DNA from: Synergistaceae bacterium
GTDB lineage: Bacteria; Synergistota; Synergistia; Synergistales; Aminobacteriaceae
Reading direction: 5' to 3'
Length of the DNA stretch: 43,801 bases
Assembly: GCA_012521675.1 (NCBI GenBank)
Contig: JAAYLU010000118.1
Span: 1 to 43,801 of the forward strand
Positions 17,205 to 19,853 of this stretch are shown piece by piece. The notes below the pieces were generated by a model. It had not been told where the DNA came from. It saw only the letters and a program-made list of their open reading frames with translations, and made no database searches. The translations under genes were made by a program, and so were the position numbers. Every line of letters begins with the position of its first letter. Positions within the stretch are counted from its first letter, which is position 1.

Positions 17205-17330
17205 CCCGCGCACAACACCCAAATGCCCTCCGGCGATTTTCTGGCTCCCGGAATTCAGTCCGGTCACAGTGGCGGGGCCGCTCCGGTTTTTCACCGGATT
17301 GCTCGACGGAGAACGCATATTCTCTTTTTA
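17205..17330 (-). promoter_or_regulatory. Cobalamin riboswitch
   Basis: On the minus strand the leader carries the conserved core of the cobalamin aptamer: AATCCGGTGAAAAACCGGAG, then CGGCCCCGCCACTGTGACCG, then GGGAGCCAGAAAATCGCC matching the B12-box position, with paired segments around them. The known class represses downstream genes when adenosyl- or other cobalamins bind. Here it precedes a terminator and an ABC/TonB uptake operon, so uptake should be on when cobalamin is scarce. Exact limits are approximate. Confidence 0.9.
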
Positions 17331-17337
17331 CGGTCTA

Positions 17338-17366
17338 ATTCTAGGCCCTCGGGGGACTCGAGTCAA
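17338..17366 (-). promoter_or_regulatory. Promoter of the cobalamin operon
   Basis: TTGACT (17361-17366), a 17-base spacer and TAGAAT (17338-17343) on the minus strand. The -35 box contains the TGA stop codon of aroB (17363-17365). Transcription would begin near 17330, right at the start of the riboswitch. Confidence 0.75.
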
Positions 17367-18484
17367 TGGGGAAAAGGATGGATTCTTCCGTCTCCGAACT
17401 CCACCTCGTAGGCTTTGCGCAATTCGTCATGCGAGATCGAAAGGAGGGCGCATCTCTCGTTCGAGCGGGGCAGGACCATCAGGGGGGTGCCGGAGCGGAA
17501 CTTCTTGTCTCGTGCCAGGAAGGGGGCGATCTCCTCCCACGTCATGTCGGGGCGGTGAGGAATCCTCAGGGCAGTCAGGAGACTATCGAGCCGGGATAGA
17601 GTCTCCTCGTGCAACATTTCCTTCTTGACGGAGAGGCGGGCTGCTACCATCATACCGGCAGCTACAGCGTCCCCATGCCTCCAGCGGAAGCCCGAGGCGG
17701 CCTCGAGCGCGTGCCCGACAGTGTGTCCCAGGTTCAGCCGCGCGCGAACCCCCGTCGTCTCGTGCTCGTCCTCGTTCACGACGGCCAGCTTCATCCGCGA
17801 GCACTCTGCCACCAGAATTTTAAGCGCTGGCAACGCCCTGCGCAGCACGGGGCGCGCATTCTCCTCCAGCCAGCCGAAGAAGCTCCACTCCTCGCCGAGG
17901 CCGTACTTGACCGCCTCCGCAAGCCCCTGTCTGAAGTCCTCGTCCGTCTGGGAGCGCAGACAGCCAACGTCGGACACCACCCACTCGGCCGGGTGGAATG
18001 CGCCGACCAGGTTCTTGCCCTCCGGAAGGTTCACCGCCGTCTTGCCGCCTATTGCACTGTCTATCTGGGCCAGCAGGGTGGTAGGGCACTGTATCAGAGC
18101 GACTCCCCGCATCCACGTGGCCGCGGCGAAGCCGGCCGTGTCGCCCACAACACCGCCTCCCAGGGCTACGATGCTTCCGTACCGGTCCACGCCGGCTGCT
18201 GCCAGGGAGGAGTAGATCCTTGACAGGCTGTCCAAGCTCTTGGCATCCTCCCCTCGCGGCAGAGTGAAGAGCCCGCGCCGATCGCCCAGGAAGTCCGCGA
18301 ACAGCGGGCCTGTTATCTCGTCGGCGACCACGAACGGGAGGGATTTTAGCCCTACGATACGAGGCAGCTGCGACAGCAATCCCTCTCCGACAACAATTGT
18401 GGTGGCGGCGCCCTGTCGCAGCAGCACGCGATCTTCGGCCTCCTGCGCGCAGCGTCGAGTCACCTGGCAATCGGCATCTGCCAT
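17363..18484 (-). CDS. aroB: 3-dehydroquinate synthase
   Basis: 373 residues. Converts DAHP to 3-dehydroquinate, step two of the shikimate pathway, using NAD and a divalent metal. Visible are the NAD-binding GGGVVGDTAGFAAATWMRGV, TTLLAQIDSAIGGKTAVNL, the metal ligands Glu in LAEAVKYG, His in LNLGHTVGHALE and a later His in RHGDAVAAGM. The ATG at 18484 has AGGAGG 8 bases upstream; the start overlaps the end of the DAHP synthase gene by 25 bases, so the first two shikimate enzymes are co-translated and both governed by the aromatic leader upstream. Confidence 0.95.
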   Translation of the reverse strand: MADADCQVTRRCAQEAEDRVLLRQGAATTIVVGEGLLSQLPRIVGLKSLPFVVADEITGPLFADFLGDRRGLFTLPRGEDAKSLDSLSRIYSSLAAAGVDRYGSIVALGGGVVGDTAGFAAATWMRGVALIQCPTTLLAQIDSAIGGKTAVNLPEGKNLVGAFHPAEWVVSDVGCLRSQTDEDFRQGLAEAVKYGLGEEWSFFGWLEENARPVLRRALPALKILVAECSRMKLAVVNEDEHETTGVRARLNLGHTVGHALEAASGFRWRHGDAVAAGMMVAARLSVKKEMLHEETLSRLDSLLTALRIPHRPDMTWEEIAPFLARDKKFRSGTPLMVLPRSNERCALLSISHDELRKAYEVEFGDGRIHPFPH

Positions 18485-19506
18485 GATGGGGCCTCCTCTT
18501 GCAGCGCGTTTATAAGCCGGGACGTTCGCGACATCAGGTTGGCGAAGTCGTCGAGCGTCAGCGACTGCGGTCCGTCGCACAGCGCCGTCTCCGGGGAGCA
18601 GTGGACCTCGAGAATCAGTCCGTCGGCTCCGGCGGCGAGAGCGGCGAGGCTCATGGGCGCTACGAGCTCGCGCCTGCCGGTGGCGTGGCTTGGGTCCACG
18701 ACGATAGGCAGGTGGGTCAGCGATTTAACCAGCGGAACTATGCTAAGGTCGAGCGTGTTGCGCGTGCTCTTGTCGAAGCTGCGTATCCCCCTCTCGCAGA
18801 GTATCACCCGCTCGTTGCCACCGGCGAGGATGTACTCCGCCGCCTGCAGCCACTCGTCCACTGTGGCGGACATTCCGCGCTTCAGCAGCACCGGCCTGTC
18901 CAGCTCGCCCAGAGTCCGAAGAAGGGGGTAGTTCTGCATGTTGCGGGTCCCCACCTGGAGGATGTCGATGTGCGGAGCGATCCATTCAGCCTCCTCCGGA
19001 GACATGACCTCCGTGATCACCGGCAGCTCGGTTGCAGCGCGAGCCTCCTTCAACAGTGCTATTCCCTCGCTGCCGAGCCCCTGGAATGCGTAGGGGTGGG
19101 AGCGCGGCTTGAACGCCCCTCCGCGCAGCACGTGGGCCCCCTCGCGGCTCACTCCCCTGGCCGTGTCCATCAGCTGCGCCCTATTCTCCACCGCGCAGGG
19201 GCCGGCCATTATCACGGGTTCGCCATCGCCGATCCACAGCCCCGGTGCCAGCTCCATCGGGCGCGGGTCGCCCCCTATCTCCCTGCTGGCGAGGGGGTAG
19301 CAGCAGGACGTGACTCGTACGCTGCTCACGCCCGCAAGCCCCTCGAAGGCCTCCGAGTCCGCGGTCGCCGAGACGTCGGCCGACATCACGTACGACCGCC
19401 CGCCCCCCGGAGCGACCCTGTAACCGCGACCAGCCTCCGCGAGCGATTCGCACACTCTGTCCAGGTCCCTTCCAGTGCTGCCGTCCGCCATCTCGACCAC
19501 CATCAT
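18460..19506 (-). CDS. aroF: DAHP synthase (3-deoxy-7-phosphoheptulonate synthase), type I-beta
   Basis: 348 residues. Condenses PEP and erythrose 4-phosphate to DAHP, the first step of aromatic biosynthesis. An N-terminal ferredoxin-like domain (about 1-75, VVEMADGSTGRDLDRVCESL) as in the Thermotoga-type enzyme is where Tyr feedback inhibition occurs in relatives. The barrel shows GPCAVENRAQ (metal Cys), LRGGAFKPRSHPYAFQGLG, VGTRNMQNYPLLRTLG, PVLLKRGMSATVDEWL, ILCERGIRSF, VVDPSHATGRRE (metal His) and EVHCSPETALCDGPQSL (metal Glu and Asp). GGAGG lies ahead of the ATG at 19506; a second ATG follows directly. Preceded by a transcription attenuator with an aromatic leader peptide. Confidence 0.95.
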   Translation of the reverse strand: MMVVEMADGSTGRDLDRVCESLAEAGRGYRVAPGGGRSYVMSADVSATADSEAFEGLAGVSSVRVTSCCYPLASREIGGDPRPMELAPGLWIGDGEPVIMAGPCAVENRAQLMDTARGVSREGAHVLRGGAFKPRSHPYAFQGLGSEGIALLKEARAATELPVITEVMSPEEAEWIAPHIDILQVGTRNMQNYPLLRTLGELDRPVLLKRGMSATVDEWLQAAEYILAGGNERVILCERGIRSFDKSTRNTLDLSIVPLVKSLTHLPIVVDPSHATGRRELVAPMSLAALAAGADGLILEVHCSPETALCDGPQSLTLDDFANLMSRTSRLINALQEEAPSWQMPIAR

Positions 19507-19541
19507 GTCCTTCTCCTCCTTTTTTGATATGTCCATAAGAC

Positions 19542-19577
19542 AAAAAACCGGAACCGGGCGTAGAAACCCGGTTCCGG
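19542..19577 (-). terminator. Attenuator terminator in the aroF leader
   Basis: Minus strand CCGGAACCGGG (19577-19567), 8-base loop, exact complement (19558-19548) and six Ts (19547-19542). It ends 36 bases before the aroF start and would stop transcripts before the structural genes. Confidence 0.88.
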
Positions 19578-19584
19578 CCTATAT

Positions 19585-19645
19585 CTTCTTTTTGCTCCGC
19601 CTGGTCCTGTCCCTTGCTAGACAGGAGAGGGCGGATATAAAGAAG
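19585..19645 (-). promoter_or_regulatory. Candidate antiterminator/pause hairpin of the aroF leader
   Basis: Three successive complementary blocks on the minus strand pair in order: CTTCTTT (19645-19639) with AAAGAAG (19591-19585), TCCGCC (19635-19630) with GGCGGA (19601-19596), and TCCTGTC (19626-19620) with GACAGGA (19611-19605). The loop holds the leader stop codon TAG. Outer bases CGG/CCG could extend the stem into the 5' arm of the terminator, the required competition for attenuation. The pairing scheme is my reading, not a computed fold. Confidence 0.55.
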
Positions 19646-19772
19646 CCGAAGACGGATCTCTACGCGAACATTGGCCGGTGGCGTAATAATACAGCCACAG
19701 GCCGCCAGTAAACGCGAACGCAAAGAATCCGCCGTCTGCTGCGAAGTTCGTGTTCATGGCCCTGCTCGCCAT
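19617..19772 (-). CDS. Aromatic-rich leader peptide of the aroF-aroB attenuator
   Basis: A 51-codon frame from ATG at 19772 (AAGGGAG about 9 bases upstream; a second in-frame ATG at 19757) with the block FFAFAFTGGLWLYYY: Phe, Phe, Phe, Phe, Trp and three consecutive Tyr in fifteen codons, after an earlier Phe. It lies between a sigma70-type promoter and the attenuator terminator of the DAHP synthase operon. Leader peptides such as PheL, TrpL and the tyrosine equivalents use runs of the end-product codon to stall the ribosome; a block containing all three aromatic codons ahead of the first common enzyme fits a general aromatic sensor. Not expected to have a function as a protein. Confidence 0.75.
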   Translation of the reverse strand: MASRAMNTNFAADGGFFAFAFTGGLWLYYYATGQCSRRDPSSASLYPPSPV

Positions 19773-19824
19773 CGCGACCGTCTCCCTTCCTGAATAATCC
19801 CCCCTCGGGGGCTGTTGGGTGAAC

Positions 19825-19853
19825 ATGCTAGACCAGTAAACGCTATTTGTCAA
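19825..19853 (-). promoter_or_regulatory. Promoter of the aroF leader
   Basis: Perfect TTGACA (19853-19848), 17-base spacer, TAGCAT (19830-19825) on the minus strand. Transcription would start near 19818, about 45 bases before the leader-peptide ATG. Confidence 0.8.

Follow-up and report, generated by a model that had tools for sequence, protein, structure and literature searches.

What controls the entry into aromatic amino acid biosynthesis in Synergistota, a phylum that has seen little regulatory work, and could a single cis-acting RNA integrate all three end products without a dedicated protein? All aromatic amino acids derive from the pathway that DAHP synthase opens, and in model bacteria control of this enzyme relies largely on repressors and feedback-sensitive isozymes. 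The question arises from a short ORF with clustered Phe, Trp and Tyr codons that precedes the DAHP synthase gene aroF in the stretch of Synergistaceae DNA analyzed here (contig JAAYLU010000118.1, 43,801 nucleotides; hereafter, the window). Comparative analysis strongly supports the attenuator proposed for this locus in the first-pass annotation: the leader is very probably a ribosome-mediated transcription attenuator of the trp/ilv type serving the shikimate-entry operon.

All elements of the locus lie on the minus strand. A sigma70-type promoter, TTGACA-17-TAGCAT (19853-19825), is followed by a leader ORF of 51 codons that runs from the ATG at 19772 to the TAG at 19619-19617 (19772-19617 in all), contains the run FFAFAFTGGLWLYYY and is preceded by a Shine-Dalgarno-like GGGAG; its full translation is MASRAMNTNFAADGGFFAFAFTGGLWLYYYATGQCSRRDPSSASLYPPSPV. 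The leader ends in a GC-rich intrinsic terminator (19580-19542), composed of a hairpin (19580-19545) and a U-run of six Ts (19547-19542), just before the regulated gene aroF (18460-19536), which encodes a type I DAHP synthase (NF006421, E=2.3e-129; TIGR01361, E=2.7e-111). Next after aroF comes aroB for 3-dehydroquinate synthase, whose true start is probably internal to the listed ORF (17363-18580). Promoter, leader with its ribosome-binding site and aromatic run, and terminator are thus all as first described. The aromatic cluster is exceptional in its surroundings: of the 63,311 stretches of 16 codons without a stop that the six frames of the window offer, just two, which overlap and both lie inside the leader, contain eight or more aromatic codons with Phe, Trp and Tyr all represented. 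The leader RNA also folds far more stably than its shuffled versions (z = -7.15). No Rfam leader (Trp_leader, Phe_leader, T-box) matched at its gathering score, none gave a meaningful match to the leader at E<=5, and the leader peptide matched no family in Pfam or NCBIfam. After aroB, a BtuF-like gene (17218-16223) has its own cobalamin riboswitch (window 17237-17300, minus strand, 37.2 bits).

The aromatic cluster turned out to be conserved upstream of aroF orthologs, with diverging flanks, as would be expected of an attenuator. A homologous leader with Phe, Trp and Tyr codons was found at all 35 AroF-I loci having enough upstream sequence, which span ten families in one order of Synergistota; 25 of these were aligned in detail, three are near-identical (L014, L016, L017) and seven more (L082, L113-L118) complete the set. 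The core of the peptide reads, with small variations, [F/Y]-x-F-[T/S]-x-G-[Q/L]-W-[R/L]-Y-Y-A-[S/T]-G. Relative to the Trp codon, which is TGG in 25/25 aligned leaders, position -5 is the Phe codon TTT in every one and at least one Tyr is present at +2/+3 in every one, while position -7 is Phe in 14 and Tyr in 11, so that F and Y can replace each other there. Synonymous changes of Phe and Tyr codons occur while the aromatic core residues are kept. Both termini of the peptide diverge, and changes in the 5' segment are mostly non-synonymous. TTGACA with a TATAAT-like -10 element and a Shine-Dalgarno sequence with a leader ORF are present at all 25 aligned loci. Each of the 23 genomes matched has a single copy of the core motif, and in a scan of 84,980 species the DNA pattern for FTxGQWRYYASG found only Synergistota, with one exception, a Methylophaga match (L032) that lies within a long unrelated ORF and was taken as chance. 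In two leaders (L019/L020), a one-base shift changes the reading frame after the Tyr codons, but the nucleotides of the antiterminator, UUGGAAAUCCG, stay the same, which argues that there the RNA rather than the peptide is under selection.

An attenuator needs alternative structures, and the search for mutually exclusive hairpins yielded three helices formed by four elements. Element 1 (19774-19785), at the Shine-Dalgarno/start region of the leader, is the anti-antiterminator arm, seen in the fold without the terminator arm; element 2 (19645-19667), comprising the codons for S-R-R-D-P-S-S-A, is the 5' arm of the antiterminator; and element 3 (19559-19578), the 5' arm of the terminator plus its loop, is common to antiterminator and terminator. 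Since element 2 can pair with either 1 or 3, and element 3 with either 2 or 4, the helices 1:2, 2:3 and 3:4 are mutually exclusive. In the window, element 2 is UCGCGUAGAGAUCCGUCUUCGGC (19667-19645) and its partner in element 3 is GCCGGA..CGGGUUUCUACG (19578-19559). In most other families CGUGGAAAUCCG pairs with CGGAUUUCCAC in the 2:3 helix, in L030 GAGACCG pairs with CGGUCUC and in L028 GGGAAC pairs with GUUCCC. When partners were swapped among one representative from each of 16 groups, the native 2:3 duplexes (-362.3 kcal/mol) were clearly more stable than the swapped ones (-302.8 +/- 10.6 kcal/mol; permutation p<=1e-5). In the alignment, 86% of antiterminator cells are paired and two-sided changes are seen at six pairs; none of 500 shuffles attained the covariation score (0.214, against 0.146 +/- 0.011 in shuffles), which peaks at slide 0 and drops with a one-column displacement of the partner. 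The terminator helix 3:4 likewise covaries (0/500 shuffles). For the 1:2 pairing, the same swap among the 16 representatives gave z = -5.5 (p<=1e-5), compared with z = -1.95 for a neighboring 40-nt control segment, although the 1:2 helix is weak in some single leaders (L028, L030). The distance from the start of the last Tyr codon to element 2 is 18 nt in 20/25 leaders and 21 nt in three, so that the last Tyr codon just clears the ribosome footprint before element 2.

Outside the switch, a further hairpin (19673-19703) covers the Trp and Tyr codons, with arms GGCCUGUGGCU and CGCCACCGGCC enclosing a loop that holds the Tyr codons. It is paired in 87.5% of alignment cells and shows compensatory changes at two pairs; its arms hold the G-Q/L-W and A-S/T-G codons. 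It may be an RNA polymerase pause hairpin. Two other pairings were considered and set aside. The hairpin whose loop contains the stop codon of the leader (19585-19645), pointed out in the first-pass annotation, does form in the window sequence between elements 2 and 3; however, the alignment shows no conservation of it, and we regard it as an accessory structure rather than a switch or antiterminator. The CCGGCC that follows the Tyr codons could pair with GGCCGG of the terminator, but the alignment places CCGGCC in the Trp-Tyr hairpin and the next element is the antiterminator.

Folding in the presence of ribosomes was modeled with the transcript cut before the 3' arm of the terminator and an assumed footprint of 18 nt upstream and 14 nt downstream of the start of the A-site codon. 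Placing the ribosome on the last Phe, Trp or Tyr codon, with the RNA upstream of it kept from pairing, gives about 10-18 expected antiterminator pairs in 25/25 leaders. Moving it to the stop codon, with all upstream RNA masked, leaves no antiterminator pairs. When pairing around the stop-codon ribosome was allowed, the leader of the window and several close relatives still favored the antiterminator, and termination in these leaders would therefore need kinetics or masking by the ribosome. As modeled, this equilibrium fold is a real weakness of the mechanism for the window sequence.

The mechanism we propose would operate as follows. Transcription would start near 19818, and RNA polymerase probably pauses at the Trp-Tyr hairpin while a ribosome begins the leader peptide. 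With the tRNAs for Phe, Trp and Tyr all charged, the ribosome would reach the stop codon, element 2 would re-pair with the start region (1:2) or be masked, element 3 would pair with 4, and transcription would end before aroF. A shortage of charged tRNA for any one of the three would stall the ribosome on the aromatic cluster, between elements 1 and 2, allowing element 2 to capture the emerging element 3, with read-through into aroF as the predicted outcome. Sequence comparison shows the leader with its aromatic codons, promoter and terminator as well as the three exclusive helices and their spacing from the codons; stalling, pausing and the direction of control are what we infer. Phe and Tyr are each likely to be effective alone, and shortage of any one aromatic amino acid would probably switch the pathway on.

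Such an arrangement has well-known counterparts. In E. coli, the trpL and pheL leaders carry codons of the end product, three exclusive helices and an intrinsic terminator, and the leader of ilvGMEDA carries Ile, Val and Leu codons. The Synergistota leader resembles those of trpEDCBA and pheA in having a leader ORF with end-product codons, helices 1:2, 2:3 and 3:4 and a terminator before the first gene, but it has the codons of three amino acids, precedes an enzyme of the common pathway, has no Rfam match and belongs to a different phylum. With ilvGMEDA it shares the principle that one leader holds codons for more than one end product of a branched pathway; however, the ilv system serves the branched-chain rather than the aromatic family, and there is no sign of homology between the two. 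Attenuation directly before a DAHP synthase gene is also known: the aroR leader of C. glutamicum, with its Phe-Tyr-Phe run, attenuates aroF (PMC11802643, PMC4046766), although this actinobacterial run has no Trp and, despite its Tyr codon, the leader responds to limitation for Phe, not Tyr (PMC11802643). In Acholeplasma, the uORFC-13-1 motif places a terminator and a short ORF with one or more Phe codons upstream of aroF, but only Phe was noted, the text describes no antiterminator and the phylum is again another (PMC8632094). A survey by Stav et al. (2019) of five genomes including Thermovirga lienii reports two uORFs with F and Y upstream of shikimate genes (its Fig. 6b); its text mentions no Trp and names no genome for them, and the Synergistota element may already be cataloged there (PMC6429828). 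Thus, the earlier remark that no attenuator reading all three amino acids had been described needs qualification: multi-amino-acid leaders as such were already known, and attenuators or uORFs had been described at aroF or other shikimate genes (PMC11802643, PMC4046766, PMC8632094, PMC6429828), while no leader with all three aromatic amino acids was found in the literature searched, which covered few subscription journals.

Leaders of other kinds accompany the second clade of DAHP synthases in Synergistota (~48% identity). These have different aromatic runs, for example MMNVSFFAAEYYYFYFFG, FAGFYYFYCYTRNK, MKQFAAYQFYFGYFYFF and YFSNYFRFTYYWGK, and in most cases a terminator follows (loci L063, L069-L074, L076-L078, L081, L090, L091, L095, L119-L121, L123 and L124). 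A matching antiterminator is clear only in genus g36 among these other leader types, with a spacing of 16-17 nt. Overall, the other DAHP synthase leaders of the phylum have F and Y runs and are mostly without W; this includes genera g36 and g40, which have no trp genes and whose leaders have no W. The resulting series of leaders (F+W+Y, F+Y and Y-rich) lets codon content be set against pathway content and makes the gain or loss of a sensed amino acid by attenuators testable. Most genomes of the large genus g16 (family f1, e.g. G042-G058) have no DAHP synthase match, only weak hits of ~30% identity resembling KDO-8-phosphate synthase, and are therefore probably aromatic amino acid auxotrophs.

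Does the leader really sense Trp? Of all steps this is the one we are least sure of, particularly in the genus of the window. The effect of Trp is less sure than that of Phe or Tyr because there is a single Trp codon, and because this TGG sits in the conserved arm of the Trp-Tyr hairpin, its conservation could be partly structural. An attenuator sensing only Phe and Tyr, with the Trp codon as a passenger kept by the pause hairpin, is a rival that we rate less likely than not. It would be akin to C. glutamicum aroR, which responds to Phe alone (PMC11802643), and would fit the scarcity of W in the other DAHP synthase leaders of the phylum. Against it stands the invariance of TGG in all 25 aligned leaders even though its hairpin partners have changed in two lineages, L030 (U.U and G.U) and L019/L020 (G.U). 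Genera with W in the leader also tend to have trp genes: TrpC, tallied by hand, is present in 15/16 genera with W and 2/6 without (Fisher p=0.009), and TrpE is present in 13/16 and 1/6, respectively (p=0.011). This pattern follows the two DAHP synthase clades and thus is not independent evidence; exceptions are G143 and G157, with trp genes and a W-less leader, and G094 and G165, with the reverse. In the genus of the window and two related genera, TrpC and mostly TrpA are found but, apart from one contaminated assembly, no recognizable anthranilate synthase, which favors the passenger reading and makes the benefit of Trp sensing in the window's genus doubtful. Six genomes of family f1 (G000, G001, G006, G025, G034, G021) have TrpC and, in all but G000, TrpA, with no match to anthranilate synthase component I. 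This suggests that these genomes make tryptophan from salvaged anthranilate or via an unrecognized enzyme. Sensing of Trp may thus be important for the group at large, whereas in the lineage of the window it may be a vestige or depend on Trp supplied through salvaged anthranilate. The full form of the proposal, in which the leader acts as an OR gate, lack of just one of Phe, Tyr and Trp sufficing to induce the entire common shikimate operon, and leader codon content across Synergistota follows the end products made (W where trp genes are kept, none where they are lost), we consider evenly poised between right and wrong.

Two further explanations dispense with charged tRNA as the signal, or with regulation by the ORF altogether. 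The peptide might act as a TnaC-like arrest peptide, the nascent FTxGQWRYYASG binding an effector, such as a free aromatic amino acid, and stalling the ribosome. The conservation of non-aromatic residues (G-Q/L-W-R/L and A-S/T-G) could be read in this way, but it is accounted for at the RNA level, since the codons of such residues form the arms of the Trp-Tyr hairpin and element 2. The interchange of F and Y in the first block and the downstream frame shift in L019/L020 also speak against recognition of the peptide itself, and arrest at high amino acid would have the wrong sign for a biosynthetic operon; we therefore consider an arrest peptide very unlikely. Even more improbable, in our estimate, is that the product of the ORF is a small protein with a function of its own, the terminator doing no more than end the transcript. 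The good Shine-Dalgarno sequence and promoter would suit such a gene, and in T. lienii the leader is indeed annotated as a CDS, the hypothetical protein Tlie_1900. However, both ends of the peptide diverge fast, no Pfam or NCBIfam family matches it, and what is kept is mainly base-pairing nucleotides and aromatic codons. Attenuation by ribosome stalling thus remains the reading we prefer.

For such an attenuator, integrating all three end products makes sense because the leader precedes the common pathway. In genome G103, the genes after aroF are tyrA, aroA, aroC, aroK/B and one for a dehydroquinase, and the T. lienii leader stands at the head of a complete shikimate operon, aroF-tyrA-aroA-aroE-aroC-aroB. 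The latter, together with its attenuator (L130, CP003097.1, 16078-23129), resides on the 32-kb plasmid pTLIE01, which also carries several transposase genes.
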